A stretch of DNA of 29,890 nt from a virus. Where the stretch lies: the IMG/VR virus record IMGVR_UViG_3300037492_000382, positions 1 through 29,890 of that record. One strand, written 5' to 3'. A model generated the notes under the pieces. It did no database searches. It was not told the origin of the DNA and saw only the letters and a program-made list of their open reading frames with translations. This document shows positions 2,316-29,890 of this stretch, in pieces. A program made the position numbers and the translations under genes. The first letter of the stretch is position 1. Each line of letters begins with the position of its first letter.

Positions 2316-3568
2316 CCAACATCAAGAAGCTCAAGGACTGCCTATTTGTGCCACCCGAGGACGCTAGCATCTGCGTTCTTGCTGGCAAGAATGATCAAGG
2401 CAAGAGCACGAGTCTCGACTGCGTGGCCTATGCGCTCGGAGGCGCAACGCTGATCTGTGACGAGCCGATCCGGCGGGGCGAGAGCACGGCCTCCGTCAAG
2501 GTGGACCTAGGCAGCATCGTCGTGACCCGCAAGTGGACCAAGAAAGGATCGCGGCTGGAGGTGGTCGACAAGTCCGTCGGCTGTGAGCCGGTTCCGCAGC
2601 CCCAAGGCTTGCTTGACCGACTCGTCGGAACGGGGATGCTCTTCGACCCACTCGCCTTCTCCCGGATGCCCCCGCGCGAGCAGGCGCGCGTCCTGGCGGA
2701 GCTCCTGAAGATCGACTTCGTCGCTGCGGACACGGCCAGGGTCTCCGCGGTGGAGGAGCGCACCGCCGCGAGGAGGGAGCAGAAGGCCGCGCAGGAGAAG
2801 GCCGAGAAGCTGGGCGAGACGATCACGGACTTCAGCGCCAGAGAGGTCTCTATCTCAGATCTCGTGTCCTTGATCCAGGCCGGCACGCTGAAGAATCAGC
2901 ACAGGGCCGGACTCAAGCAGACGGTCGAGGATGCGGAGAAGGCCATCCAGGCAGCGGACGAGAAGGTGCGCCGTCTTCAGCAAGAGATCGAGGAAGCGAC
3001 GGCTGCCCTGCGGGTGCGCGAGACAGAGAAGGAGGAGGCCACCCGACTCTTCGGCGCTGCCCCGGAGTTCGACGTCTCGGGCTTGCAGACACAGCTTGCC
3101 TCTGCGGAGACGCGCAACGCCGAGGCCCGCAGGGTCTGCGACTACAACACGCTCGTCGCGTCTGTCGAGATAGCGTCCAAAGAAGCCGAGGCGGCCGACA
3201 CGAAGGTGCTGAAGATCGACTCCTGGAAGAAGAGGCAGCTCGTGGAGGCGCCGTTCCCGATCCCCGGCCTGGCGTTCGCCGAGGACGGGTCCGGAGTCCT
3301 CCTGAACGACCTACCCTTCGAGCAGGCCGGGGACGCTGCTAAGGTCAAGGTCGGAGTGGCGATGGGCTTGGCGATGTCGAAGGAGGTCAAGGTTCTCCTC
3401 ATCCGCGACGGCTCGCTGCTGGACGAGGACTCGATGGCCGCGATCGAGGCGATGGCGGCGGAGGCCGGCGCGCAGATCTGGGTGGAAAGAGTAGGGATGG
3501 ATGGACCAGCGACCTGGGTAATCGAACAAGGAGAAATAGCCCGTGGCCCATCCGATGATACTATTTGA
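2291..3568 (+). CDS. SMC/RecF-like AAA ATPase of phage recombination cassettes
   Basis: From GTG 2291, preceded by AGGGAGAG, the product has 425 residues and begins directly with the first beta-strand, as RecF/SbcC-type proteins do. An in-frame ATG at 2264 adds nine residues without a good ribosome site. Walker A is GKNDQGKST at 32-40. A coiled coil covers roughly 150-305. The C-terminal lobe has FEQAGDAAKVKVGVAMGLAM (343-362), standing where the ABC signature should be, and VLLIRDGSLLDEDS (368-381) as a Walker-B-like strand lacking the usual D-E pair. ATP-dependent handling of DNA ends with the RecE-like nuclease is inferred from context. The last 26 bases overlap an inserted HNH gene, so the natural C-terminus may have been altered. 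Confidence 0.75.
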   Translation: MVIKSMRVTNIKKLKDCLFVPPEDASICVLAGKNDQGKSTSLDCVAYALGGATLICDEPIRRGESTASVKVDLGSIVVTRKWTKKGSRLEVVDKSVGCEPVPQPQGLLDRLVGTGMLFDPLAFSRMPPREQARVLAELLKIDFVAADTARVSAVEERTAARREQKAAQEKAEKLGETITDFSAREVSISDLVSLIQAGTLKNQHRAGLKQTVEDAEKAIQAADEKVRRLQQEIEEATAALRVRETEKEEATRLFGAAPEFDVSGLQTQLASAETRNAEARRVCDYNTLVASVEIASKEAEAADTKVLKIDSWKKRQLVEAPFPIPGLAFAEDGSGVLLNDLPFEQAGDAAKVKVGVAMGLAMSKEVKVLLIRDGSLLDEDSMAAIEAMAAEAGAQIWVERVGMDGPATWVIEQGEIARGPSDDTI

Positions 3569-4040
3569 CCTACTGAAACGGCATTCGACTCCGAGTTCAG
3601 ACGGCTGCCTTCTCTGGACGGCATACAAGGATAAAGATGGTTACGGACTGCTTCGGCACAAATCACTCCCACGAACGACCCGTGCCCATCGTTTATCGTG
3701 GGAACTTCGCAACGGAAAGATCCCTCTTAATCTGTGCGTTCTCCATAGCTGTGACAATCCTTCTTGCATCAAACCGAGCCACCTATTCCTTGGAACGCAG
3801 GCAGACAACTTGAAAGATGCGTCCGCTAAGGGGCGGCTATCCTATCCGCATCCAAAGACTCGCGGAAGCCGCAATCCCAAGGCCAAACTCACGAGCAGTA
3901 AGGTTCTCCGCATTCGAATCCTCTATGCCTCTGGAATGACCCAGAAGCGTATTGCTCTGAGGTTCGGAGTCGAAGAGCCGTGCATATTCAAGATCCTCAG
4001 TGGAAGATCGTGGGGATGGCTGACATGCACCCTCCTCTAA
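3543..4040 (+). CDS. HNH homing endonuclease with C-terminal helix-turn-helix
   Basis: The 165-residue product starts at GTG 3543, with GGAG nine bases upstream; ATG 3555 is an alternative. The N-terminal GCLLWTAYKDKDGYG and RAHRLSWEL lead into the HNH core, with H68, C70, D71, N72, C75 and H80 in LHSCDNPSCIKPSHLFLGT, and then N89. Residues 110-158 (NPKAKLTSSKVLRIRILYAS onward) form a helix-turn-helix DNA-recognition module usual in free-standing phage HNH genes. It is visibly more AT-rich than its neighbours: 53% GC in bases 3661-3720 against 67% in 3061-3120. It overlaps the ATPase gene end, pointing to recent insertion as a mobile, self-propagating gene. It probably nicks or cuts phage DNA near its insertion site. 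Confidence 0.88.
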   Translation: MAHPMILFDLLKRHSTPSSDGCLLWTAYKDKDGYGLLRHKSLPRTTRAHRLSWELRNGKIPLNLCVLHSCDNPSCIKPSHLFLGTQADNLKDASAKGRLSYPHPKTRGSRNPKAKLTSSKVLRIRILYASGMTQKRIALRFGVEEPCIFKILSGRSWGWLTCTLL

Positions 4041-6525: not shown

Positions 6526-6614
6526 TGCGGGGTAGCTCAGTGGTAGAGCATCTGGCGTAACTCGGTGTCGAGGTCATATCCAGGTGGTCGCGGGTTCGAA
6601 TCCTGCCCCTGCAA
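6526..6614 (+). tRNA. tRNA-like gene, anticodon CAU, with a 17-nt insertion in the anticodon loop
   Basis: A complete cloverleaf can be drawn. The acceptor stem TGCGGGG (6526-6532) pairs with CCCTGCA (6607-6613) with one G-U. The D arm is GCTC/GAGC (6535-6549). The anticodon stem TCTGG (6551-6555) pairs with CCAGG (6580-6584), a 5-base variable loop follows, and the T arm GCGGG/CCTGC carries TTCGAAT. The discriminator is A6614 and CCA is not encoded. The anticodon loop has 24 bases instead of 7. Its 5' C and 3' TCATAT are what an elongator Met or Ile2 (CAU) tRNA would have, leaving GTAACTCGGTGTCGAGG (6557-6573) as an insertion, within which CTCG-GTGT-CGAG forms a hairpin. It may be functional after splicing, or a disrupted tRNA. 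Confidence 0.75.
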
Positions 6615-11974: not shown

Positions 11975-14566
11975 TCAGCTTTCAGACGAAGCGGACGAGG
12001 ACGAAGCGGACGAGGAGGAGGAGGAGGACGAAGAAGAGGAGGACCCGGAGCCGCCGGACTTCCCGGCAGTGACGATCTCTTCCTCCCACGTGATCTGCGA
12101 GTCGCCCACGCCCTCAAAGTCGAGCAGCCCCTCGTTGATGACCATGTTCTCGATGCGGATGACGAAGGTGCCGGCGGCCGTCGTGACCGCGACCACGTCC
12201 CCGGGGTTGAGGAAGAGATACTTCCGAGAGCAGAAGAAGTGGTACCGGGCGCGCTCGATCCACGCCTGGGCGATCTTCCGCGTGGCGTAGGTCTCGGCCT
12301 CGCTGGCGAGCATGACCAATGGCAGGCTGAGCCCGACCTTCTCCAGCGATCGCGTCGACCAACTCGCCTTGCGAGCTAAGGCCGAGATGTACTCCTTCTG
12401 GCCGTCTAGGTAGCCCACCTCCACCATCGCCGGCATGGCCTCCGCGTTCTCATAGGAGGTGACGAGGTCCTGCGGGCGTTCGGAGTCGGACGGGTGCGCG
12501 GCCAGGTCTCCGATCGGGATGTCAGTCCAGGCGATCCCGTCGCGGAAGAGGAAGAAGATCTTCCCGTCCACCTCGACACCGTCGAAGCCGTACGCCTCGC
12601 AGAGAGGAGAGAGAGCTCCCCGCGCCTGCATCCGGTTCTCCAGCAAGTAGCCCCGGAGGACGTCGGCCTCTGCGCTCGCGAGGTCGGTCACGTCGATCTG
12701 TCCCGCGGTTAGGCCGGCGCGCAGGCAGATGTCCGTCACGCAGGCGGAGAGGGTCGTCTCCACGGGTTCGGACTGCGAGGTCGCGATGGCGTAGGAGTAA
12801 TGACCTCCCGCGGCGATGAGCGTCCAGTAGTATCCGGAGGGTGGAGATGGGATCGTGGTCTCTCCATCCGTGTTCCTTCCCCAACCGACTACGGTGCCGT
12901 CGAACTTGATCGCCAAGCAGTGAAAGGATCCACAACAAATTCCGCAGAAGTCCGAGGTCCCAGGGACGTTCGAGACCTGTCCATAGCCGTCATAGCCCCA
13001 GGCCGACAGCGATCCGTCCGTCTTCAACCCTACGCCATGCCCGTCTCCGCAGGCGATGTCCTCGAAGTATCCGCCTGGTATTCCAGACACTTGTCCGTAG
13101 GCGTTACTCCCCCACGCCTGCAAGCCGGATGCGGCGGAGATCCCGAGACTCCACCAGTAACCACCGGCGACGCGAATGAAGTCAGTGTAAGCAGGAACGG
13201 TACACTGACCATAGGTATTGTCTCCCCACGCAAGGAGCGTCCCATCGGACTTCAGACCGAGAGAGTGAAGATGCCCACAGGCAATCGCTACGAAGTCTGA
13301 GTTCGGAGAAGGAATCGTGCATTGTCCGCTGGTGTTGAGGCCCCACGCCACCAGCGTACCGTCAGCCTTGAGCCCGAGGCTGTGCGACCCTCCCGCAGCC
13401 ACCGCGATGAATCCACCGTTGGGATTCGGAACGTCGCACTCTCCAGAGGCGTTGCCCCCGTGAGTCAAGATCGAGCCGTCGGACTTCAGGCCGAGAACGT
13501 GGTTGTCTGAAGAGGAGCACCGAATGAAGTCGTCTCCTTCACCACCGAAGATCCCGTCGCCTGAAAGGCCCCAGTTATGCAACTCTCCGCCCGCCAGCAC
13601 CGGGGCCACCGATGACACCTCGAAGCTGAACGTCGGGATGGAGTTGTTCGTGAGGTGCAGCGGGAAGTTCTTGAAGACGATGTAGGCCAGGTCGCGGTAG
13701 GCCGGCGTGATGGCGGCGTCCGCAGAATTATAGTCAGGCTCAAACAACACCCACTCGCGTTCGCCGTTGTGCTTATAGACGCAGTGATCATCCTGATTGT
13801 AGATCATCTGGCCCTTCTGAGGTTTACCGGATCGATCGGATGTGTCCGTAGGAGCTCCGCCGAAGACCCAAGTCATCCTGTCGTTGAACCGGCCCCACTC
13901 GGCTATGTATCCCTTGTGGCGAGACCATTGCCCAGTAGCGTTGGGACTCAAGGCGTGTATATCCCCGACGCTAGGATTCCCTGGCGCGGACGTCCGGCCC
14001 ACGTCTAGCACCTGCAAGAGACCCACATTGCTCGACTCTCCCAAGATCGAAGGGTCTTGTACTTGAGTGGGAGTCCCAAGGTGAACGGTGAACTGCACCT
14101 GAGAGGCGAGCTCCGCCGCGGGTTCCGTCAGTGGTTCGCGCGAGCCCATCCCCCGCGTATCAACGAAGCACAACTCGTTGGCCCAGATCCTCGTGATCCC
14201 CCCGATAGGTCCGCGGCAGATTCCGATGGCGAACGTGCAGAGGACAGGATCGAGTCCGGCGTTCTTGGTGATCTTGCCCATCCAGATCATGTTGCCGGCG
14301 AACTTTGCCGTGCCGTAGATCGAAGGGATGACGACGCCCCAAGCGCCCGTCTGCGTTCCTAGGTCAAACGATTGCGGGCCTTCAAGTCGGTTCGCCGGCT
14401 TTCCCTTCCAGGCGTCGATCACCATGCCGACCATAGAGACGGCCCCGGAGATCGCCTGCGCCCCGGCGAAGCCCTGCGCTGCCCCTCCGAAGGATCCGGG
14501 CTTGAAGGTCTGAGCCGAGGGTTGATGGAAGCCTCCACCGCCCGGAGTCGGATTACCGAATGGCAT
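11975..14566 (-). CDS. Tail-tip (GTA gp15-like) protein with an inserted RCC1-type seven-repeat propeller
   Basis: The 863-residue product is the large baseplate/tail-tip component. Residues 60-100 and 285-320 match the N-terminal tail domain of the GTA gp15-like family (LEGPQSFDLGTQTGAWGVVI and AYRDLAYIVFKNFPLHLTNN). Residues 600-830 continue that family (VETTLSACVTDICLRAGL; MQARGALSPLCEAYGFDGVE; NPGDVVAVT). Between them, about 325-597, are seven repeats of W-G-x-(N/D)-x-x-G type at 332, 369, 408, 447, 485, 523 and 562, spaced 37-39 residues, each followed by a G-x-x-H-(S/C)-(L/V)-(G/A)-(L/I)-K-x-D-G motif. That is an RCC1/BLIP-II-like propeller. No TIM-barrel segment is evident. The protein ends in a poly-Ser tail. 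It probably forms the central tip and may display the propeller for receptor binding. Confidence 0.85.
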   Translation of the reverse strand: MPFGNPTPGGGGFHQPSAQTFKPGSFGGAAQGFAGAQAISGAVSMVGMVIDAWKGKPANRLEGPQSFDLGTQTGAWGVVIPSIYGTAKFAGNMIWMGKITKNAGLDPVLCTFAIGICRGPIGGITRIWANELCFVDTRGMGSREPLTEPAAELASQVQFTVHLGTPTQVQDPSILGESSNVGLLQVLDVGRTSAPGNPSVGDIHALSPNATGQWSRHKGYIAEWGRFNDRMTWVFGGAPTDTSDRSGKPQKGQMIYNQDDHCVYKHNGEREWVLFEPDYNSADAAITPAYRDLAYIVFKNFPLHLTNNSIPTFSFEVSSVAPVLAGGELHNWGLSGDGIFGGEGDDFIRCSSSDNHVLGLKSDGSILTHGGNASGECDVPNPNGGFIAVAAGGSHSLGLKADGTLVAWGLNTSGQCTIPSPNSDFVAIACGHLHSLGLKSDGTLLAWGDNTYGQCTVPAYTDFIRVAGGYWWSLGISAASGLQAWGSNAYGQVSGIPGGYFEDIACGDGHGVGLKTDGSLSAWGYDGYGQVSNVPGTSDFCGICCGSFHCLAIKFDGTVVGWGRNTDGETTIPSPPSGYYWTLIAAGGHYSYAIATSQSEPVETTLSACVTDICLRAGLTAGQIDVTDLASAEADVLRGYLLENRMQARGALSPLCEAYGFDGVEVDGKIFFLFRDGIAWTDIPIGDLAAHPSDSERPQDLVTSYENAEAMPAMVEVGYLDGQKEYISALARKASWSTRSLEKVGLSLPLVMLASEAETYATRKIAQAWIERARYHFFCSRKYLFLNPGDVVAVTTAAGTFVIRIENMVINEGLLDFEGVGDSQITWEEEIVTAGKSGGSGSSSSSSSSSSSSASSSSASSES
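11984..12043 (-). repeat. TCN triplet tract coding a poly-Ser tail
   Basis: The last twenty-odd residues of the tail-tip protein are serine with occasional alanine (842-861), encoded by consecutive TCC/TCT/TCG codons on the minus strand. The tract is imperfect, so slippage is limited, but any triplet gain or loss would keep frame and stop. It may be a flexible surface tail or an O-glycosylation target. Confidence 0.7.
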
Positions 14567-14570
14567 GGCG

Positions 14571-15488
14571 TCAATGTCCCCAGGGAGTTCGACTCGTTGG
14601 ATTGTAGGCGATCGTGCTCATGGCCTCGGGCTCCGTCGGCACGAACGGCTCGCCCCGGAAGTTGATGGCGTTCGCAAAGCGATTGCGGCACATATTGATC
14701 GTCTTGTCGCAGCCGACGTCGATGTGGAAGGTGTCATCGACCTCGATCGGGAACGGCATCGGGCAGAGCAGCGTGAAGATCGTGTGGTCGAAGATGTCCA
14801 CGTCGACCGCCGACTTGATCTCCATCGTGAGCTGGTAATTCGCGCTTCCTACCTTCGTCCATATTAGCGTTCCGCCAGTGAGCTTGACGCCTTCCAGGTC
14901 GAGGATATGACTGGAGTTGAACCGCTGCGTCGCTCCTTCGAGTGCCGCACCGACGACTCCGGTCGTGTTGAATGCCGGCACGTTGAGGGCCACGCCACAC
15001 TGCGCGTCGCCCAGCTTGGCCCGGCAGGTCTCGGAGTAGGTGTCCCCGATCTCGACCTGTAGCTTCTGCGTGAGGCTGCGCATCTCGATCTGGCAGACGT
15101 GGTCGTTGAGGTCGAACCGGCCGACGCTCCATCCTTGCGCCAGGTAGACGACGCCCATCGAAGGATCTTCCCAGTTCACTAGAAACAGGTCCAGCGTGGC
15201 TACGTCCAACTGACCTGAACGCAAGCCGGCATCCGTGATCCCCAGGGCAGCGAAGAAGGAGGTGATCTCAAGGTTGTCCACGGAGAGCGTTAGGTTCTGG
15301 TTGATCGACGTCGCGCTCATCGCGAACAGAGGAGAATAGGTGATCCCGTCGACGATCAGGTCGCAGTCGTGGTCTGTGAATGCGATCGGGTCCTTCCCCA
15401 CCCCGTACGGCCAGATCACGCAGCAGGTCGCCAGGGTGGTGACCTCCTGCTCCATGTGCGACTGAAGTGCTACGGAGATCGTCCTCAT
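14571..15488 (-). CDS. Tail hub protein, DUF2163 / phage BR0599 type
   Basis: The 305-residue product matches the GTA gp13 family: an N-terminal DUF2163 domain (TCCVIWPYG, FTDHDCDLIVDGITYSP) and a C-terminal BR0599 domain ending GCDKTINMCRNRFANAINF then RGEPFVP. Cysteines C155, C164, C260 and C267 are placed like those that hold a metal or Fe-S centre in the hub of the Rhodobacter gene transfer agent; that assignment is from known structure, not seen here. It links the distal tail ring to the tip protein. Its start overlaps the end of the DUF2460 gene by 4 bases, and the tip gene begins 4 bases after its stop. Confidence 0.85.
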   Translation of the reverse strand: MRTISVALQSHMEQEVTTLATCCVIWPYGVGKDPIAFTDHDCDLIVDGITYSPLFAMSATSINQNLTLSVDNLEITSFFAALGITDAGLRSGQLDVATLDLFLVNWEDPSMGVVYLAQGWSVGRFDLNDHVCQIEMRSLTQKLQVEIGDTYSETCRAKLGDAQCGVALNVPAFNTTGVVGAALEGATQRFNSSHILDLEGVKLTGGTLIWTKVGSANYQLTMEIKSAVDVDIFDHTIFTLLCPMPFPIEVDDTFHIDVGCDKTINMCRNRFANAINFRGEPFVPTEPEAMSTIAYNPTSRTPWGH

Positions 15489-16087
15489 TCTCGCACCTGC
15501 ACCAGCGGGAGCGAGGCGCTGCCCGCCAGATAGTCGTCGATGCTCACCGAGTGGAAGTCGTCATCGAACCGCATCGGAACGTAGAACTCGAAGGTCGCGG
15601 TCAAGGCGTCGCCGGCAGCCGGAGCCGATGAAAAGTTGACGTTGCCCGTCGTGTAGGTGATCGTGATCCCAGCCAACTGCTCGACGCCGTTCTTGAAGAC
15701 ATGGACGGTTCCCAACTTCGGCCTGGTGATCCTCCGCGTGTAGGTGACCAGTCCGTCGGTGTAGGTCTTCGCGAGCTGGTAGTTATGCTGGCCCGCGACT
15801 CCGGTAGCGAAGCGGGAGAGCGTGGCGTCATAGTCCTTGGGGTTGCGGAATAGAAAGCCGCGCGCCCGCCCGCCGCGCCCGATGAAGAAGAGTTGCAGCG
15901 CGTCCAACTGGGTCTGGGATCGAACGCCGTAGCTGATGTCCCACCGCTCCCGGTAGAACTGCCAACGCTGGTTGCGCTGCTCGCTGCCGTCACCTCGCTC
16001 GATGATCTCCGTGGAGAACTCCGGTCCACCTTGACTTCCGTAGGCGATGTCCTCCGGGAAGACGATCTCGTCGACGACGAAGCTCAT
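15485..16087 (-). CDS. Distal tail protein, DUF2460 family (copy 2)
   Basis: The 200-residue product carries the DUF2460/GTA gp12 pattern: FPEDIAYGSQGGPEFSTEI at the N-terminus, RERWDISYGVRSQTQLDAL, FFIGRGGRARGFLFRNPKDY, a central VTYTRRITRP strand, and MRFDDDFHSVSIDDYLAGS near the end. Six copies of such a protein normally form the ring between tube and hub. It is a clear paralogue of the adjacent upstream gene, overlaps it by 4 bases, and likewise overlaps the hub gene. Confidence 0.88.
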   Translation of the reverse strand: MSFVVDEIVFPEDIAYGSQGGPEFSTEIIERGDGSEQRNQRWQFYRERWDISYGVRSQTQLDALQLFFIGRGGRARGFLFRNPKDYDATLSRFATGVAGQHNYQLAKTYTDGLVTYTRRITRPKLGTVHVFKNGVEQLAGITITYTTGNVNFSSAPAAGDALTATFEFYVPMRFDDDFHSVSIDDYLAGSASLPLVQVRE

Positions 16088-16689
16088 ACCAGCTCCCGGA
16101 TCGGGACCTGCGCGGAGCCGGCGAGGTAGTCCGCCAGCACCCGCGTGAGGTAGTCCGAGTCGAACCTGGCCTTGATCCAGAAGTCATAAGAGACCGCGAC
16201 GGCCACTCCGTTCCCCGGCGCGACGTCCAGCAGCAGGCTGTGCGTTGCCGGAAAGTACTCATAGCCGGCCCCGGCGACTCCCCCCACGAACACCTCCAGA
16301 CTAGCCTCCGAGATGAACAGGTTCGTGCGCGTCCTGGTGACGACTCCGGAGACGTAGGTCTTCGAGAGAGGGATCGTGAAGCTGCGATTGGCACCGTTGC
16401 CCGTTCCGATGCTCTGCTGCTCGTTGCGATGGTCCAGCGGATCCTCGAAGTAGAAGCCGGCTGCCATGCCCCGGCGGCAGGTGAAGAAGGTCATCAGCGC
16501 GTCCAGGTCGGCGTCGGTCTTCACTCCGTAGGCCACGTTCCAGCGGGCGCGATGGATCGGCTGGCGCATCGTACCCTGCACCTCGCCGCCGCCGAGCTCC
16601 ATCAGCTCAGTCTTGAACTCCGGTCCACCCGCGCTCCCGTAGGAGATGTCCGTCGGGAAGAGAATCGCGTCGAAGGAAGCGTAGGTCAT
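16084..16689 (-). CDS. Distal tail protein, DUF2460 family (copy 1)
   Basis: The 201-residue product has the same layout as its neighbour: FPTDISYGSAGGPEFKTEL, RARWNVAYGVKTDADLDAL, FFTCRRGMAAGFYFEDPLDH, TYVSGVVTRTRTN and ARFDSDYLTRVLADYLAGS. Length and motif order are conserved but most residues differ, so the duplication is old. One copy may form the ring and the other a second ring or adaptor. It overlaps the tape-measure gene by 4 bases. Confidence 0.88.
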   Translation of the reverse strand: MTYASFDAILFPTDISYGSAGGPEFKTELMELGGGEVQGTMRQPIHRARWNVAYGVKTDADLDALMTFFTCRRGMAAGFYFEDPLDHRNEQQSIGTGNGANRSFTIPLSKTYVSGVVTRTRTNLFISEASLEVFVGGVAGAGYEYFPATHSLLLDVAPGNGVAVAVSYDFWIKARFDSDYLTRVLADYLAGSAQVPIRELV

Positions 16690-20421: not shown

Positions 20422-20847
20422 CTAGCTGGTGACGGTGACGACGCCGGTGATCTTGATCGTGACGTCGCAGGTGATCTTCTCGTCCGGGGTGATGGCGGCG
20501 AAGGGGCAGGCCGTCACGAGACCCGAGAACTGGAAGGTCGTGGCCGTGGAGTCCGGCAGGACGATCTTGTAGACTCGGGCCGTGTTCGAGTCGAAGTCCG
20601 ACTTCATTGTCCCCCAGGTCCCCATCGTGAAGTTCATGCTCAGCGAGATCTCGCCGGAGTCCTTCATGCCGGCGATGAACTCCTTGTAGCCTCCCGTGCT
20701 GTCCAGGCTGGTCACGTCGATCTGGTTCCGCTGCATCGTCGGTCCAGAGATCGAGTTGACCTCCGCGATGGCGACGAACACCGTGTTCGCCGGTGGAGTC
20801 GCCCTTGAGAAGGTGGTACCGACACCAGCTACCGCTCCGCTTGACAT
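20422..20847 (-). CDS. Major tail tube protein
   Basis: The 141-residue product is the usual size for a tube subunit of a siphovirus. Key blocks are FVAIAEVNSISGPTMQRNQI, DVTSLDSTGGYKEFIAGMKD (with SGEISLSMNF following), YKIVLPDSTATTFQFSGLVT, and a final beta-strand region (DVTIKITGVVTVTS). AAGGGAGAACGAGC precedes ATG 20847. It polymerises as hexamer rings around the tape measure. The next gene upstream encodes a longer paralogue, separated by 67 bases. Confidence 0.9.
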   Translation of the reverse strand: MSSGAVAGVGTTFSRATPPANTVFVAIAEVNSISGPTMQRNQIDVTSLDSTGGYKEFIAGMKDSGEISLSMNFTMGTWGTMKSDFDSNTARVYKIVLPDSTATTFQFSGLVTACPFAAITPDEKITCDVTIKITGVVTVTS

Positions 20848-20914: not shown

Positions 20915-22609
20915 CTACCAGACCAGAGGTTCGACTGCGGTATGATGGAGGCGAGAGTGGAGGACCGCCACCGCCAAGCGGCCCAGGTGCATCTTGTTGG
21001 AGGTCGACGCGCGGCTCAGCCCGACCTCGATCAGGTCCAAGTCCGCAATGGTGAACGCCAGTCCCGTCGCCGGGTTGAGCTGGAGTACCTGCCGGTTGAC
21101 CCCGTAGTAGCCGCCCGTCGTGATCGTATCGCTTCCATCGTCGTTGGCGGATCGCGTGGCTCCCGCCCCCGGGTTGAGCCCGTCGTAGCAGTCCAGGAAC
21201 GGGGTGCCCGTGGACAGTGCTCCCGCTACCTCACACCGGTAGAGCGATATCCCCTTCACGGCATAGATCTTGTCCGGCTCGTGCCCGGTCCAGACGCCGG
21301 AGATCGGCGTCACTCCCACGGAGACGACCTGAACGCCGGTCGTGGCGTTGCGAAGGAACCCAGCGGCTACCTCCACGTCCTTGTCCGTCGGGATGCTCGG
21401 CCTCGGATTCTCGATCGGAGCCCCGTCCATCGCGGACCAGAGGTCGTCCGTGGATCCCTGGGTGAAGTACGGAGCACCCGACTGCGAGGCTCCGATGGCC
21501 CAGGCGTCCTTCGTCACGTCGCGCACCGGCACGAGGTTGGTGATACCCCAGGTTCCCGTCATCCGCTCGCTTCCGTAGATGACGTGGTCATATCGAAAAC
21601 GAACCCCGGCCGGCTGATCGAGTGTGCTGTAGCCAAGATGAAACCCGGATACCCCGTTCAAGGAATCCCACAACTCCTCGGATCCGATCAGGACGTCGTC
21701 GACATAGAAGAGGGTCTGGAAGCCGTCGTGTCTGCTGGCATAGAAAGCGATCTTGTACCACTGCCCCGGAACCAAGGCAGAAGACGACTCGAAGACCTTC
21801 GCGCCGTCAGCATCGTAGACCCCAAGCAATCCGCCCGCAGTGAGCTTGAGGTAGACGTTTCCTCCGGCGATGACACCGGTCGCCACGAAAGCGACATCGG
21901 AGGGGAGCTGATCGCAGGAGAAATAGAAGCACAGCCAGGACCCATAATGCGTCGTGCCCACTGGCCGACCGTCATCTCCCACGGTCTGGACCGAAACATA
22001 CGGCTGAGCTCCCACCGATGAGTCCAGCAGGAGGACCCTCTCCCCGATGCCCTCGGTGGCGGTGCCGAGAGGGAAGGACACGTCATCGTAGGAAATGAAG
22101 AACTCGCCCCACCCGGTCTCGAACCCCATCATGTTGTAGACGGTCCCGGCGTAGTCCGGCTCAGGATCCTCCGGCTCCGGGATGGTCTCCAGGATGACGA
22201 TCCTGCCGCTGACCTTGAAGACGACCTCAGCGGAGATCTTCCCGTCCGGCAGGATCTCGTTGATCTTGCAGCTCATGGCGATGGCACGGAAGCGGAGCGT
22301 GCTCAAGGCGGAATCCGGAAGCTCGATGCGGTACTCCCGCAGGACGCCCGCGACGAAGTCCGTCCGGAAGACGTCGTAGGTCGACCGCAGGAAGTTCGCC
22401 TGGATCGTGACCGCGCCGCCGTCGCGGATGCCTCCGATGTACTCGTGGTAGCCGCCGGCAGACCCGAGGTTCGAGACCTTGATCGCGTTGCGGCCGAGAC
22501 CAGGACCGGAGATGGAGGTGATGCCGGCGATCGGGAGGAAGACGCCGTCGTAGGCCACGGCTTCGCGCAGGAACCTCGCCCCGTGTCCGGTGATCGCCGC
22601 GGTGGTCAC
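20915..22609 (-). CDS. Tail-tube paralogue fused to a LamG/concanavalin-like domain
   Basis: Residues 1-137 of this 564-residue product repeat the tube fold next door: IAGITSISGPGLGRNAIKVS, LGSAGGYHEYIGGIRDGGAV and YRIELPDSALSTLRFRAIAM all have direct counterparts there. After a PEPEDPEP linker, residues about 155-335 look like a LamG/concanavalin jelly roll (FETGWGEFF, GNVYLKLTAGGLLGVYDADG, PGQWYKIAFYASRHDG, YVDDVLIG). A further 220-residue domain of unknown fold follows (SLYRCEVAGALSTGTPFLDC), ending in a His-rich stretch. The protein may be a decorated minor tube subunit exposing a glycan-binding domain on the tail surface. It overlaps the terminator gene by 4 bases. Confidence 0.78.
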   Translation of the reverse strand: MTTAAITGHGARFLREAVAYDGVFLPIAGITSISGPGLGRNAIKVSNLGSAGGYHEYIGGIRDGGAVTIQANFLRSTYDVFRTDFVAGVLREYRIELPDSALSTLRFRAIAMSCKINEILPDGKISAEVVFKVSGRIVILETIPEPEDPEPDYAGTVYNMMGFETGWGEFFISYDDVSFPLGTATEGIGERVLLLDSSVGAQPYVSVQTVGDDGRPVGTTHYGSWLCFYFSCDQLPSDVAFVATGVIAGGNVYLKLTAGGLLGVYDADGAKVFESSSALVPGQWYKIAFYASRHDGFQTLFYVDDVLIGSEELWDSLNGVSGFHLGYSTLDQPAGVRFRYDHVIYGSERMTGTWGITNLVPVRDVTKDAWAIGASQSGAPYFTQGSTDDLWSAMDGAPIENPRPSIPTDKDVEVAAGFLRNATTGVQVVSVGVTPISGVWTGHEPDKIYAVKGISLYRCEVAGALSTGTPFLDCYDGLNPGAGATRSANDDGSDTITTGGYYGVNRQVLQLNPATGLAFTIADLDLIEVGLSRASTSNKMHLGRLAVAVLHSRLHHTAVEPLVW

Positions 22610-24229: not shown

Positions 24230-25225
24230 CTACCGCAGGTGCCACGGCGCATTCGCCCGCCGATGATGTTCGGCCAGTAGTTGATCGAAGATCCATGCGT
24301 AGGTCTTGGAGATCCCATCCACGAGCGGGGTGTTCGGCTCCCATCCCAGGACGCTGCGGATCATAGAGTTGTCGCTGTTACGACCGGCCACACCTGTCGG
24401 GGAGTTGAGGAGGTAGTGTCGCTCCAGCTTGACGTTCGCGCAGGACTCCACGACTCCCACGAGTTCGTCCACGGTAACCTTCTCCGAGCTCCCGATATTC
24501 ACCGGCTCGGAGCAGTTGCTCTCCATGAGCCGGAGGGTGCCCTCGATACAATCATCGATCCAGGTGAAGCTCCGCGTCTTGCTCCCGTCGCCCCAGATCT
24601 CGATTCCGCCTGCTCTGTTGATGACCGCCTCGGCCACCTTCCGGCAGATGGCGGCCGGCGCCTTCTCTCGACCGCCTCGAAAAGCCCCATGCGACCCATA
24701 GATGTTGTGGTAGCGAGCGACTCGGATCTGAAGTCCGACGTCCTCCGCGAAGTGCCGGCACATCCTCTCTGAGAACAGCTTCTCCCAGCCGTAGCCGTCC
24801 TCCGGGCTGGCCGGGTAGGCGTCCGCCTCGACCAGACCCCTGATCGACGGGTTCGTTTGCTTGTCGGCCGCGTAGACGCAGGCGGAAGAGGAGAAGAAGA
24901 ATCGCTCCACCTTCGCCTCCGAAGCCGCCATGAGGAGGTGGGTGTTGATGAGGACGTTGAGCATGCACGCAACCTTGTGACTCTCGATGAAGCCGATCCC
25001 GCCCATGTCTGCCGCGAGGTTGTAGACCTTCGAGCACCCGGCGACAGCGGTGTGGCAGTCGGAGATTCGCTTCAGGTCTAGGACGCGGTTCTCAGCTTCC
25101 GGATGCTTCTGGTACCAGTCGATGAATGGTTTGATGTCCACCGCGCGAACCTCGTTGCCGTCGGCGAGGAGGCGCTTTACCAACCAACCACCGATGAACC
25201 CGCCGGCTCCGCAGACCGCGATCAT
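24230..25225 (-). CDS. GDP-mannose 3,5-epimerase homologue (extended SDR)
   Basis: The 331-residue product closely follows GDP-mannose 3,5-epimerases, which convert GDP-D-mannose to GDP-L-galactose (and GDP-L-gulose). The NAD-binding GAGGFIG is at 6-12. NLAADMGGIGFIESH covers 69-83, the catalytic SSSAC with C116 is at 112-116, GYGWEK holds the Tyr-Lys pair Y145/K149, FRGGREKAPAA has the family lysine K188, and GDGSKTRSFTWIDDCIEG and GRNSDNSMIRSVLGW complete the pattern. The SDR fold is certain; the substrate is inferred from these family-specific motifs. It follows the dehydrogenase gene with a 4-base overlap. A GT11 transferase in the same cassette could use its product. Confidence 0.85.
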   Translation of the reverse strand: MIAVCGAGGFIGGWLVKRLLADGNEVRAVDIKPFIDWYQKHPEAENRVLDLKRISDCHTAVAGCSKVYNLAADMGGIGFIESHKVACMLNVLINTHLLMAASEAKVERFFFSSSACVYAADKQTNPSIRGLVEADAYPASPEDGYGWEKLFSERMCRHFAEDVGLQIRVARYHNIYGSHGAFRGGREKAPAAICRKVAEAVINRAGGIEIWGDGSKTRSFTWIDDCIEGTLRLMESNCSEPVNIGSSEKVTVDELVGVVESCANVKLERHYLLNSPTGVAGRNSDNSMIRSVLGWEPNTPLVDGISKTYAWIFDQLLAEHHRRANAPWHLR

Positions 25226-26319
25226 GGCAGGACCTCGTAGCAGAAACGGTCACCGTGGATTAGGCGAACCTGCTTGATCACGTCCTCGCGGTCGGCGATG
25301 AAAACCTTCTTGCCGGCCTCGCGAGCGAGGACCGCGAGCGCGAGCCGCTGCGACATCTCGATCATGTCGGTTCCTTCCTTGTAGGTCACGCCCACGATGC
25401 GGAAGAACTTCGACGGGTCGAGTAGGACACGGGCAAGTTGCTCTTCGAGGTGCAGTTGGTTCTGGGCGTCGGAGGCGGCCGAGAGCCTTATGTCCAATCC
25501 CACGGCAGCCGCGGCCAACCCCAAGGCTCGATTGTCGCGGGGGAGGCACGGCCCACCGTAGCCGTCTCCGTATCGCATGTACCGATTCCCCACGCGGCTG
25601 TCATGGCCGATACAGGACAGGGCGTTGTCCACGTCTCCGCCACACGCCAGCCTATGAAGAAGGTCTCCGATCGCATTGGCGAAGGAGATCTTCATGGTCA
25701 GAAAGCAGTTCATGGCGATCTTCGTCACCTCTGCCGCCGTGATCCCCATATGGAAGATGAAGGCGTCGTTCTTGACGATGCGCCGGTAGACCTCGGTGAT
25801 CGCCTCTCCGGCCTTGTCGTCGTCCTCTCCCACGAGGACCAAGTCGGGACGAGTCAGCCCCTTGAGGATCTCTCCCTGGGCGATGAACTCCGGGTTGTAG
25901 GACAGCCGAAACCGCTTTGACTTTGCGAGCATACTTGCCGAGAGGATGTAACCTGGCATCGTGGTGCAGCAGATCACGAGGTCCTTCTCTTCATCAGCCA
26001 CGGGCAGGCGAGCCAACACGTCGTCGACGGCCGTGTGGTCATAACTCCCATTCGGAAGCGATGGAGTAGGAACGAACACGAAGGAGATCGGGCATGCCTC
26101 GACGACTTCCGGAATCGTCTTCACGACAGAGAGGTCGAGAGTCTTCGCCATCAGCTCGTTCACGCCGGGCTCTTTGGAACGGAATGATCCGTCTTCGACG
26201 CTCCGCAGGTAGGGCAGGTCCTTATCCGTCGCCACGACCCTGAACCCGGCGTCAGCCGCGGCCAGCGCGAAACACAGTCCGAGCTTTCCGACTCCGATGA
26301 CGCCTACTGTTTCTGGCAT
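25222..26319 (-). CDS. Nucleotide-sugar dehydrogenase (UDP-glucose/GDP-mannose type)
   Basis: The 365-residue product has the N-terminal Rossmann motif GVGKLG (9-14), VPTPSLPNGSYD, SYNPEFIAQGEILKG (140-154), EVTKIAMNCFLTMKISFANA with K200, the catalytic cysteine C258 in GGPCLPRDNRA, and the C-terminal VTYKEGTDMIEMSQ. Such enzymes oxidise C6 of a nucleotide sugar twice to the uronic acid using NAD. UDP-glucose or GDP-mannose cannot be chosen between by eye. It is slightly shorter than most family members at the C-terminus. It overlaps the upstream glycosyltransferase gene by 16 bases. Confidence 0.85.
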   Translation of the reverse strand: MPETVGVIGVGKLGLCFALAAADAGFRVVATDKDLPYLRSVEDGSFRSKEPGVNELMAKTLDLSVVKTIPEVVEACPISFVFVPTPSLPNGSYDHTAVDDVLARLPVADEEKDLVICCTTMPGYILSASMLAKSKRFRLSYNPEFIAQGEILKGLTRPDLVLVGEDDDKAGEAITEVYRRIVKNDAFIFHMGITAAEVTKIAMNCFLTMKISFANAIGDLLHRLACGGDVDNALSCIGHDSRVGNRYMRYGDGYGGPCLPRDNRALGLAAAAVGLDIRLSAASDAQNQLHLEEQLARVLLDPSKFFRIVGVTYKEGTDMIEMSQRLALAVLAREAGKKVFIADREDVIKQVRLIHGDRFCYEVLP

Positions 26320-27179
26320 GCGCTGATCCTCAGCGCACCGTTCTCTTCGACGGTGGCATAGTTGATGAGACCCCAGTCCGCTCGGTTCTGATAACCGTCC
26401 TGATTGTAGCTCATTCCTTCGGGAGGTTTGCCGTGGAACAGGTGATCATAAGCACCCGGAAGGTGTTGAAGAGTGACTCCTTGCCGGTGCATCTGCCACA
26501 AGATCTCACCGTCCATTCCAGACCGATGCCAGTACTCATTTCTGTGGATCGGACTGACCTCGTCGAATCCTTGCGCGACGGAGAGCATGGTCGTTCTACT
26601 GACCATAAGGAAGTTGCCACCGTAGTTTGCAGAGACCCTCCAGTCAGGACAGCGCCTGTCATCAAGATGCGATGTTCTGATCACATCTCTCGTCTGGGGA
26701 TGAAGGTCTCTGTGAAGGCTCGGACGGAAGAAGTGCTGATCATCATCGACCACAGACTGTGCAACGACGGCCGCAAGCAACTCTTCGGACAGCATCACGT
26801 CCCCGTTCAGGATGAGGACGTAACGGCCGGCGGCTCTGCGGATGCCGACGTTCTTGGCGAAGTGCTCGAAGAATCCGGTGGCGGGGATCAATCCCTCGGC
26901 TCTCGCGACGCTTTCACCAACGATGATAGTCCGCACTCTTCTATCTGCAAAGATCGGCTTGAGCTGATCGACCATGCACAATGGATCGCCAGGTGAGCAC
27001 CAGTCGACGATGATCCACTCCGCATTGATGTCCGTCCGTGCGAGCAGGTCTAGATTGTGAGAGACGGCCAAGCCGAACCGATCGACGAAAGGTAGACCGC
27101 CCGTGAAGACTCGTCCTCCTTTGGACGGATCGGACCCGTAGTCCTTGTTCCGTGCCGACGTGACGATGGAGAGGTCCAT
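26304..27179 (-). CDS. Glycosyltransferase, GT-A fold (GT2-like)
   Basis: ATG 27179, sharing one base with the upstream stop (TGATG), gives 291 residues starting MDLSIVTSARNKDYG. A central RRAAGRYVLILNGDVMLSEE supplies the GT-A nucleotide-sugar and metal-binding acidic motif. GGNFLMVSRTTMLSVAQGFD and HRSGMDGEILWQMHRQGVTL are acceptor-side motifs seen in galactosyl/GT2-like enzymes, and YDHLFHGKPPEG follows. Donor and acceptor are unknown. Base composition is a little more AT-rich than the structural genes (53% GC in 26461-26520). Confidence 0.75.
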   Translation of the reverse strand: MDLSIVTSARNKDYGSDPSKGGRVFTGGLPFVDRFGLAVSHNLDLLARTDINAEWIIVDWCSPGDPLCMVDQLKPIFADRRVRTIIVGESVARAEGLIPATGFFEHFAKNVGIRRAAGRYVLILNGDVMLSEELLAAVVAQSVVDDDQHFFRPSLHRDLHPQTRDVIRTSHLDDRRCPDWRVSANYGGNFLMVSRTTMLSVAQGFDEVSPIHRNEYWHRSGMDGEILWQMHRQGVTLQHLPGAYDHLFHGKPPEGMSYNQDGYQNRADWGLINYATVEENGALRISACQKQ

Positions 27180-27820
27180 CACATCCTCATGTAGCAGGCG
27201 TCGCCCCACCAGCGGTGCACCATGTAGGTCTCAACCCTCTTGAACCCGCGCGCCGCCAGGTACTCGTCCAGCTCGCCGACCTGGACGCACCCTTCGTACA
27301 GCTCCGCGCAGTTGATCTCCGTGACGATGGCCTGGATCCCCCGAATGGTCTGCTCAGCACCGCGCAGAACGGCTCCCTCGTAGCCCTGCACGTCCATGCA
27401 CAAAAAGTCGAATACCGCTCCCTCAATCTCGACTTCCTTGAGGACCCCGTCGAGCGTCCTCTGCGGAACGACAAGCTCGGAATCGAACACCACGTCCGGG
27501 GACATCTGGGTGTGCAGTTTTGGACGCAGACACGAGCTGGACATCCCCTTGTTCGCCGGATGGTGCTCGACGCTCATGGTGACCGTACCGTCCTCGGGAC
27601 CCAGTGCCACCTGGAAGGCCCGAGGTCGCTTGACCTTCACGATCTTCTTGAGCAGCTCCGCGTAGGGCATCGGCAACGGCTCGAAGAACAAAGCGTCCTC
27701 GATGCCCATCGCGACGAACGAGTCCACCTCCTGTCCCATGTGCGCCCCGACCTGGATCACGCCCTTGGGACGGAAGCGATGAAGCGCGAATATCTTCGCG
27801 GTGTCTACGAGCATGATCAC
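27179..27820 (-). CDS. FkbM-family methyltransferase
   Basis: The 213-residue product has VIQVGAHMGQEVDSFVAMGI as the SAM-binding motif, the acidic FFEPLP, DFLCMDVQGYEGAVLRGAEQ, AIVTEINCAELYEGC and the ending RWWGDACYMRM, all typical of FkbM methyltransferases that often O-methylate sugars. It overlaps the upstream methyltransferase gene by 4 bases (ATGA) and the following glycosyltransferase by one base. Methylating a sugar on the same glycan is the likely role. Confidence 0.85.
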   Translation of the reverse strand: MIMLVDTAKIFALHRFRPKGVIQVGAHMGQEVDSFVAMGIEDALFFEPLPMPYAELLKKIVKVKRPRAFQVALGPEDGTVTMSVEHHPANKGMSSSCLRPKLHTQMSPDVVFDSELVVPQRTLDGVLKEVEIEGAVFDFLCMDVQGYEGAVLRGAEQTIRGIQAIVTEINCAELYEGCVQVGELDEYLAARGFKRVETYMVHRWWGDACYMRM

Positions 27821-28383
27821 CTCCCCGGACGAAAGACCATGAGGTTGTCCTTGAACCAGTCGAAACAGGCGGCGGTGCGCAGCCGAACCGTCGCGAACGG
27901 GTCGGCGTGGAATCTACGGATCGCGAACTCGTCAGCCCACTCACCAGGCGCCCGACAGGCGATGTGTCCGTAGCCGGTCTGTCCAGGAACCGCTCCTGAG
28001 AATACGATCAGACGCGGCGTCCGCGCGGCGATCGCGTCGAACAGCGCCTTGTGGCGCTCCATCGCGACGTGCTCGGTGACCTCCAGGCACAGAACCAGGT
28101 CGAAGTGCCCGAGGTCGCGAGGAGGGCCGAAGGTCACGTCTTCGGCGAGGACCCTCCACCTGCCGGCGTCGACGGAGATCAGCGGTTCAATCCCGAGCAG
28201 CGGACCAGCCATCGAGTCGGACAGGAACTCAAGATAACGGCCCAACCCGCAGCCGATGTCGATGACGGACCGACACGGAGGGACGGCCAGGTCTCGAATC
28301 GCGCCGGCGAGCGCCTCGTCGAAGAAGGGCATCTCCTCGTGGTCTCCAACGGTCCACGGGCCACCGAACTCCGCCTCGCTCAT
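27817..28383 (-). CDS. Class I SAM-dependent methyltransferase
   Basis: ATG 28383 overlaps the stop of the fucosyltransferase-like gene (ATGA); the longer open frame is a shadow across that gene. The 188-residue product has motif I at SVIDIGCGLGRYLEFLSDS, LLGIEPLISVDAGRW for the acidic loop, HFDLVLCLEVTEHVAMERH (motif IV), and a C-terminal part (ARTPRLIVFSGAVPGQTGYG, FRPGR). It fits the Methyltransf_23/11 type. The substrate is unknown; sugar or lipid-linked glycan is likely from context. Confidence 0.78.
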   Translation of the reverse strand: MSEAEFGGPWTVGDHEEMPFFDEALAGAIRDLAVPPCRSVIDIGCGLGRYLEFLSDSMAGPLLGIEPLISVDAGRWRVLAEDVTFGPPRDLGHFDLVLCLEVTEHVAMERHKALFDAIAARTPRLIVFSGAVPGQTGYGHIACRAPGEWADEFAIRRFHADPFATVRLRTAACFDWFKDNLMVFRPGR

Positions 28384-29246
28384 TTCGGCCCCGCGGAAAG
28401 CCACCGCTCTGGGAACAGGTCCTTGATGTCCCATCGCGGAGGAGGGTAGGCCGGACCGAACCAGAGCGTGGGGCGGACGATGATCGCCGATGGCTTCTCG
28501 GACAGCCACGCGGCCCACCAGGACATCGTGCTGTTCGAGATGATCTTGTGGTCGCAGAGCAGCATGCACGCGAAGTCCCATACCGGATCGTCTTCCGGAC
28601 CTCCCCGGTAGACGGCGTTCGGCAGAGGAAAGTTCTCGGAGCACCAGGCAGCGTCCGCACTGTCGTTCGAGAATACCACGTACGCAAGAGCTTGCTTCGT
28701 GCACTGTGACAGTAGGTCGATTGCGTTCCGATAGTACGCGAGAGGTTGAAGCGGAATGAACGAGGCGTGCAATTTGGGATCGATTCCGCCGCCGTGGACG
28801 TTGTCTCCCCTCCTCATGTGCAGCATGACGGTGGAATATCCCGGAGGCAGGGTCCTGTCCCACTCGCTGCGATAACCATCCATGTCCGCCGTGGCTCTCT
28901 CGACATACTTGGACGCCGGGACTAGATGGCTCCGAACGGTTTCCCCGACGTGCTCGAAGTACTTCTCCGTCTGGTAGTAACCGAAGAAGTCCGTTCCGTC
29001 CTCAACGCTGAAGACTGATTCGTCGAAGCCGTACTGTCGCTCGCGATGACTCGGTGTGATCCGGCGTGACGGATGGATTGAGGCGTTGAAGACTTCTTCC
29101 GGGAGATGGAACTCACCGAGGAGATGACGCATCCGCGGGATTCCTATCTTGAAGCCGGTTTTGGCTGCCACGCCCAGGAGCAGAGCGTACTGGAAGAGCT
29201 GGTTGCCAAGGCGGCCGTGACTGCCGAGACGGCTGAACGAGATCAT
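28380..29246 (-). CDS. Alpha-1,2-fucosyltransferase-like enzyme (GT11)
   Basis: The 288-residue product shows the GT11 features: GRLGNQLFQYA (11-21), FGYYQTEKYFE (88-98), MLHMRRGDN (141-149, the nucleotide-binding H-x-R-R-G-D), FSNDSADAAW, and ISNSTMSWWAAWL (236-248). These enzymes transfer L-fucose from GDP-L-fucose in alpha-1,2 linkage. No GDP-fucose synthesis gene is present here, but GDP-L-galactose, which differs only by a 6-hydroxyl, could be supplied by the epimerase at 24230-25225. It overlaps neighbouring genes by 4 bases on both sides. Confidence 0.88.
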   Translation of the reverse strand: MISFSRLGSHGRLGNQLFQYALLLGVAAKTGFKIGIPRMRHLLGEFHLPEEVFNASIHPSRRITPSHRERQYGFDESVFSVEDGTDFFGYYQTEKYFEHVGETVRSHLVPASKYVERATADMDGYRSEWDRTLPPGYSTVMLHMRRGDNVHGGGIDPKLHASFIPLQPLAYYRNAIDLLSQCTKQALAYVVFSNDSADAAWCSENFPLPNAVYRGGPEDDPVWDFACMLLCDHKIISNSTMSWWAAWLSEKPSAIIVRPTLWFGPAYPPPRWDIKDLFPERWLSAGPK

Positions 29247-29884
29247 GACAGGGCACCCTGCGAAGACCGGACGCGCTGTGCTGCGGCTCGGTGTTCTGCC
29301 CGATGCGCGACCGTCAGGGAGTCGTCGTGCTTGCGGTACAGCACCAAGGGCTGCGGAACGTGGACGAACTCAACTCCCGCTCTCAAGGCGCGGAACATGA
29401 AGTCGAGATCTTCCGCCAAGAGCAGCGACGGATCGTACCCCCCCACGAGGTCGAACGCCTTCCTGGTCATCACCGGGCTGGTGACGAGGTGGTCTCGCTG
29501 GAGCAGCCCGTCCATCGTCACCACTTCGCCTAGCATCGGGCGCTGACGATCCCAGAGGATGCCGGACGTGCAGATGCAGTTCTCTCGCTCGCCTATCGCT
29601 TGGAGCGAAAGGCTCAGCTTGTCCACATGCCACGCGTCGTCGGCATCGAGGAAAGCGATGAATGGGCAGGAGCAGAGTCGAGCACCGGCATTCCGCGCTA
29701 CTGCCGGTCCAGCGTGATCGATCCTCAGGCCGGCGCCCGGGATTGGATGGTCGGACCCGTCATCGACGACGAAGAGGTGAAGGTCCACCGCTTGTTGGCG
29801 CACGGACTCAACGGCCTCCGCTAGATAGCGATCGCAGTTGTAGACCGGGATCACGACGTCAACTACGGGATGCTCCGCGCTCAC
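29243..29884 (-). CDS. Family 2 glycosyltransferase
   Basis: The 213-residue product begins VDVVIPVYNCDRYLAEAVES, followed by VDDGS, AGPAVARNAGARL and FLDADDAW, which holds the D-x-D metal motif; LLAEDLDFMFRAL is the usual ED acceptor-side motif. The start is GTG 29884, overlapping a likely upstream stop as GTGA at the window edge, so another gene probably precedes it. It is shorter than many GT2 proteins, with a basic C-terminus. It transfers an unknown sugar, probably to the same glycan as the neighbouring enzymes. Confidence 0.85.
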   Translation of the reverse strand: MSAEHPVVDVVIPVYNCDRYLAEAVESVRQQAVDLHLFVVDDGSDHPIPGAGLRIDHAGPAVARNAGARLCSCPFIAFLDADDAWHVDKLSLSLQAIGERENCICTSGILWDRQRPMLGEVVTMDGLLQRDHLVTSPVMTRKAFDLVGGYDPSLLLAEDLDFMFRALRAGVEFVHVPQPLVLYRKHDDSLTVAHRAEHRAAAQRVRSSQGALS

Positions 29885-29890
29885 GGCATC

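Follow-up and report, generated by a model that had tools for sequence, protein, structure and literature searches.

The window analysed here, the 29,890-nt stretch of viral DNA that constitutes record IMGVR_UViG_3300037492_000382, encodes an 863-residue tail-tip protein of the GTA gp15 or 'megatron' type in which a predicted seven-bladed RCC1/BLIP-II-type propeller stands, as judged by homology of its flanks, where the megatron of RcGTA has its peripheral domain. Homologues fill this place (the slot) with different domains, and we lean towards the view that the propeller, in the peripheral slot of its GTA-type megatron, serves as an exchangeable module for surface contact. The evidence points to a swappable module of this kind rather than to a new kind of machine.

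Identification and domain layout of the tail-tip protein

The assignment of the ORF to the GTA gp15-like tip proteins, made in an initial annotation of the window, was borne out by PHROGs, by phmmer and by profile matches to the RcGTA megatron (gp15, Rcc01698; 6tba chain 8A). The phmmer match comprised the C-terminal part of the protein (residues 601-820; 3.7e-16), and a profile of the block following the slot (C block, profile A2) matched residues 764-957 of the RcGTA megatron (6e-34). A profile of the block preceding the slot (N block, profile A1, with the window sequence first) matched residues 57-201 of the RcGTA megatron (8.3e-38) and residues 55-207 of the megatron of roseophage R4C (PDB 8gtc chain M; 3.6e-32), while the N block of the window itself gives 6.2e-43 with a profile that contains it. 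The A1 and A2 alignments, each of ten tip proteins, proved too diverse for scanning the collection, and smaller alignments were used there. Judged by these similarities, the protein is a megatron-like tip protein from a siphophage whose tail tip is GTA-like, but one without the full RcGTA-type set of megatron domains, as PF23666 is missing.

The RcGTA megatron has been divided into iris/penetration (residues 1-46), adhesin-like (47-229), peripheral (230-744), central (745-984) and fibre-binding (985-1304) regions (PMC7296036). The adhesin-like and central domains of the window protein are homologous to those of RcGTA and occur in the same order, a block order that is also found in R4C, and since the flanking blocks match the two RcGTA segments given above, the propeller is placed by homology in the position of the peripheral domain, which in RcGTA is a TIM barrel instead (Table 1). 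Homology is the basis for placing all domains, given that a full-length fold without alignment reached a pLDDT of 34. The N block holds an additional window-specific stretch, at about residues 175-286 in the alignment.

Table 1. Tail-tip gene, its domains and the adjoining tail genes, with positions in the window.
Feature	Position	Strand	Basis
Tail-tip protein, GTA gp15/megatron-like, 863 aa	11975..14566	-	PHROGs tail protein family phrog_4271, 2.8e-66; RcGTA megatron 6tba_8A
Residues 1-61, Gly/Ala-rich N-terminus, positional match to 'iris/penetration' region	14384..14566	-	Alignment; map in PMC7296036
Residues 62-317, N block, 'adhesin-like' domain, C-terminal end ...IPTFSFEV	13616..14383	-	Profile A1; alignment
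Residues 318-601, predicted seven-bladed RCC1-type propeller in peripheral-domain slot	12764..13615	-	Pfam RCC1_2; AlphaFold; Foldseek
Residues 602-809, C block, 'central' domain (Phage-tail_3)	12140..12763	-	Pfam PF13550, 1.1e-21; profile A2
Residues 835-863, Gly/Ser tail, poly-serine	11978..12064	-	In relatives, about 350 more residues with fibre-binding domain
Hub protein partner, Gp84_N / BR0599 type, RcGTA gp13-like	14571..15488	-	Pfam 1.6e-43, 9.9e-19
Two adjoining DUF2460 distal-tail genes (15485-16087, 16084-16689)	15485..16689	-	Pfam 1.3e-55, 5e-37

The slot holds a predicted RCC1/BLIP-II-type propeller

The propeller fills the entire interval between the two conserved blocks. Its repeat motifs begin at residues 332, 369, 408, 447, 485, 523 and 562, with spacings of 37, 39, 39, 38, 38 and 39 residues. 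The initial annotation had described seven WG repeats spaced 37-39 residues in residues 325-597 (12776-13594); coordinates, frame, count and spacing all hold, but the motifs are not uniformly WG, since the second is HG and the other six are WG. When the protein sequence was shuffled 10,000 times, chains of motifs spaced 36-40 residues never had more than two members, so chance does not account for the seven regularly spaced motifs. When the repeats were compared with RCC1 and BLIP-II, as had been suggested, they matched Pfam RCC1_2 (PF13540) with E-values from 8.7e-39 to 4.6e-41, and the closest solved sequences were those of BLIP-II (best E 4.8e-38).

An AlphaFold model of the propeller, based on an alignment over residues 318-605 of 30 RCC1 propellers, 29 of them taken from viral contigs and one from the window, reached a pLDDT of 86.3 and a pTM of 0.85. 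It comprises six three-stranded blades and a seventh that is closed by strands from the N- and C-terminal ends, as is usual for RCC1-type propellers. The complete propeller deduced earlier from the repeat count is accordingly matched by the predicted fold, and a closed seven-bladed structure of the RCC1/BLIP-II type is well supported as a prediction. Foldseek searches of the PDB returned BLIP-II first (1jtd_B, E 2.1e-22, TM 0.78/0.82; 33-35% sequence identity in the structural alignment), followed by UVR8, RPGR and RCC1, and searches of predicted viral structures returned many proteins named 'regulator of chromosome condensation' and one named tail tubular protein. BLIP-II (PDB 1jtd, 3qhy) is also a short-bladed RCC1-like propeller with seven blades and is the best match in both sequence and fold, but it is a stand-alone secreted inhibitor acting outside any virion, and its ligand cannot be transferred to the window protein.

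RCC1 repeats are widespread among phage genomes, as in Marinobacter phage PS6, whose RCC1 gene shows 34% identity, and in the IMG/VR loci L123-L197, the first of which is about 38% identical across the propeller. These phage proteins differ from the one described here in that they are separate genes, long tandem arrays or other large proteins, and none of those compared (PS6; L123-L197) has both megatron blocks. In one of them (L126:781-3768), a seven-repeat RCC1 propeller is followed by a long poly-serine stretch, comparable to the poly-serine tail of the 863-residue protein. The literature searched, which lay mostly outside subscription journals, contained no previous description of a megatron with an RCC1 domain.

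Domain exchange at the peripheral slot

Viral-contig scans, one genome scan and a phage-record search together yielded 257 proteins with both blocks, which collapsed into 156 clusters when grouped by C block at 90% identity. The slot is filled in 148 clusters, with 150-800 residues, and is empty in the remaining eight, where the blocks lie 2-13 residues apart; slot lengths of 150-250 residues were seen in three clusters, 250-460 in 76, 460-600 in 63 and longer ones in six. Among the occupants there are 66 TIM barrels, counted as matches to a profile made from slots with the GTA TIM barrel, 81 other occupants of 150-800 residues, and a single RCC1 domain, that of the window. The TIM barrel is therefore not a defining feature of the wider family, being present in only these 66 of the 156 relatives. 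Of 81 filled slots in an earlier set, Pfam assigned 22-23 to GTA_TIM, one to RCC1 and one to a Gly-rich domain. The megatron gene is interrupted immediately ahead of the slot in L102, L103 and L107 and immediately behind it in L110 and L112, and since the genes are split at these points, the slot edges are true module boundaries.

The slot of L248 resembles YVTN/WD propellers, and for most of the other slots no fold is assigned. That many slots are propellers remained an impression, because the sequence tests mostly failed and L248 was the only one to match YVTN/WD; hhalign comparison of slots with L248 was negative, the slots of L115, L262 and the ten-member cluster A8 gave no useful PDB match, and the lectin-like look of the L012 and L016 slots was confirmed by no Pfam model. 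In L260, L225, L290 and L213, there are two or three tandem megatron genes per phage, with differing slot contents.

This survey bears directly on how the propeller came to its place. The initial annotation regarded it as an insertion between normally adjoining blocks, a view that the flank comparison does not support, as the blocks are contiguous only in the eight empty-slot clusters; it had also allowed that the whole class might always carry the segment as an ordinary domain, and a domain is indeed nearly always present, but not an RCC1 domain. A tree built from the two blocks, with the slot left out, places the window in a clade of nine with 98% SH-aLRT, and the other eight members have filled slots, none of them with RCC1. 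The nearest members by path carry slots of 356 (L287), 338 (L294), 801 (L207), 785 (L286) and 355 (L225) residues. An earlier tree of 87 rows had the same window neighbourhood; with 1.2 changes per column, the window branch is a long one, and sampling around it is thin. Given that all eight clade relatives carry other domains in the slot, the simplest reading of the sequences is that RCC1 replaced a resident slot domain in the window's lineage. Fresh insertion between otherwise contiguous blocks would find a model in the eight clusters in which the blocks are directly joined, showing that an empty site exists in nature, but with a domain in all other clusters, nearest relatives included, replacement is far more parsimonious, and we regard insertion as very improbable.

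It could also be argued that the gene is a product of chimeric assembly, an unrelated RCC1 gene having been fused to a tip gene, as the architecture occurs in one virus only among the 156 clusters and GC3 is 0.69 in the slot, below the 0.89 of the C block. However, GC3 of the N block is also lowish (0.75), a single uninterrupted frame spans both propeller junctions, and a second IMG/VR contig, 3300037487_002004, has an identical tip gene, its 11 differences from the window in 12,972 bases all lying elsewhere, which makes such an artefact hardly credible. In view of the N block value, we do not argue for recent import from the low GC3 of the slot.

Absence of the fibre-binding domain

The window protein ends in its poly-serine tail within about 55 residues after the central domain, and the fibre-binding domain PF23666, which both RcGTA and R4C possess, has no match in either the window record or the near-identical contig 3300037487_002004. 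Directly past the stop codon of the tip gene there is a short gene with a probable membrane segment at its end, followed by a GH108 lysozyme gene. Among the 156 relatives, 141 carry the domain in the same ORF; for most of those that seem to lack it, it is encoded by a neighbouring ORF or the gene is cut by the contig end. L098 and L228 were considered as further relatives lacking the domain and were rejected, since it was found in an adjoining ORF in both; L225 seems to be without it. A tip protein lacking this domain fits a tip that would contact its host by other means.

The initial annotation had also pointed out that the window has no separate tail-fibre gene. Terminase, portal and capsid genes were not found among the genes scanned in the 29.9-kb record, which is therefore a fragment, and for this reason the missing fibre gene carries little weight: such a gene may lie outside the record, and the second contig adds only 2.1 kb of further genes.

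Proposed role of the propeller

In the RcGTA particle, the peripheral TIM barrel protrudes from the baseplate core and its function is described as unknown (preprint PMC13420450). In R4C the peripheral domain is predicted to be mannanase-like and has an extra carbohydrate-binding module, and for the systems with solved structures a saccharide-binding role of this position is discussed (PMC10276861 for R4C). The R4C slot, with its mannanase-like domain and CBM11-like module, contains no propeller, and this phage has fibres in addition to the fibre-binding domain, unlike the window; it nevertheless shows accessory carbohydrate-binding domains being added at the peripheral position.

We read the gene as encoding the baseplate protein, of megatron type, of a siphophage whose tail tip resembles that of GTAs. 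Its peripheral slot, at which the megatron family exchanges whole domains, holds the predicted RCC1/BLIP-II-type propeller instead of the RcGTA TIM barrel or the other domains of the nearest relatives. If RcGTA is taken as the model, the propeller would protrude in three copies from the sides of a trimeric baseplate and would probably bind a host-surface protein or glycan there, and the tip, having no domain to hold fibres, would contact the cell directly. Receptor binding by the propeller is plausible by this analogy, and the idea gains support from the lack of the fibre-binding domain in the 863-residue protein. The blade loops show no variation between the two contigs, in which the tip gene is identical. 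That the three slot-held propellers would be the main or sole receptor-binding device of a fibre-less GTA-like tip is a more speculative proposition, which we consider rather doubtful; if true, it would be one case of a general rule in which the slot serves as a plug-in site for the exchange of adhesion domains.

RCC1 propellers have a wide range of binding partners, and BLIP-II acts as the inhibitor of an enzyme. The slot may serve assembly instead of adhesion, as suggested by loop 591-599 of the RcGTA peripheral TIM barrel, which touches the tailspike TspA (preprint PMC13420450), and the propeller could mainly be a structural or docking platform that stabilises the baseplate or holds a virion protein such as a tailspike or an enzyme, with no contact to the host. 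Propellers are common platforms for protein-protein contacts, BLIP-II, the nearest fold, binds proteins, and the empty-slot relatives indicate that the position is dispensable for the core. Yet the variety of slot contents (TIM barrel, RCC1, YVTN-like, Gly-rich, unassigned or none) is better explained by changing partners outside the virion, and a tailspike gene was not recognised in the record; we therefore consider docking unlikely, if by no means negligible. Still less probable is an enzyme or inhibitor, directed for instance against a surface polymer or a secreted host enzyme in the way that BLIP-II acts on beta-lactamase. The closest fold is that of an inhibitor, and the alternative occupant GTA_TIM resembles a GH113 glycoside hydrolase, but no catalytic signature was found in the propeller, and an identity of about one third to BLIP-II does not allow its binding specificity to be assumed. 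To our knowledge, RCC1-type propellers are not generally hydrolases.

Taken with the genes split at the slot edges, the varied occupants lead to the testable proposal that the peripheral slot is an exchangeable contact module. Such a proposal bears on the role of the protruding peripheral domain of GTA megatrons, and it would direct annotators to host-range determinants in GTA-like phages without obvious fibres.

Other features of the record

The order of the RcGTA cluster (tape measure, distal tail, hub, peptidase, megatron) is followed in part: the tape measure, distal tail and hub genes are arranged as in RcGTA, with two departures. GTA-like clusters usually have one DUF2460 distal-tail gene, which is doubled here. 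An NlpC/P60 peptidase gene usually lies between hub and megatron in GTA-like phages; unlike in RcGTA, none was found between these genes in the window (14566-14571), nor elsewhere in the record.

Next to a tail-tube gene of normal size (20422-20847), there is a 564-residue tail-tube paralogue (20915-22609, minus strand), residues 5-161 of which match a major-tail-protein family (7.1e-10). Its long extension has a weak match to Laminin_G_3, a lectin-like family (1.8e-4, under the Pfam cut-off), and from this similarity the protein could be another candidate surface binder.

Adjoining the head-tail connector genes is a block of sugar genes (24233-29890, minus strand) that includes an epimerase, a UDP-glucose dehydrogenase, FkbM-type and other methyltransferases and a glycosyltransferase, and the second contig continues this block with more probable glycosyltransferase-like ORFs. 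The early region contains a tRNA-Tyr gene with anticodon GTA (6526-6614, plus strand), and an ORF at 3543-4040 (plus strand) resembles, by eye, an HNH-type homing endonuclease.
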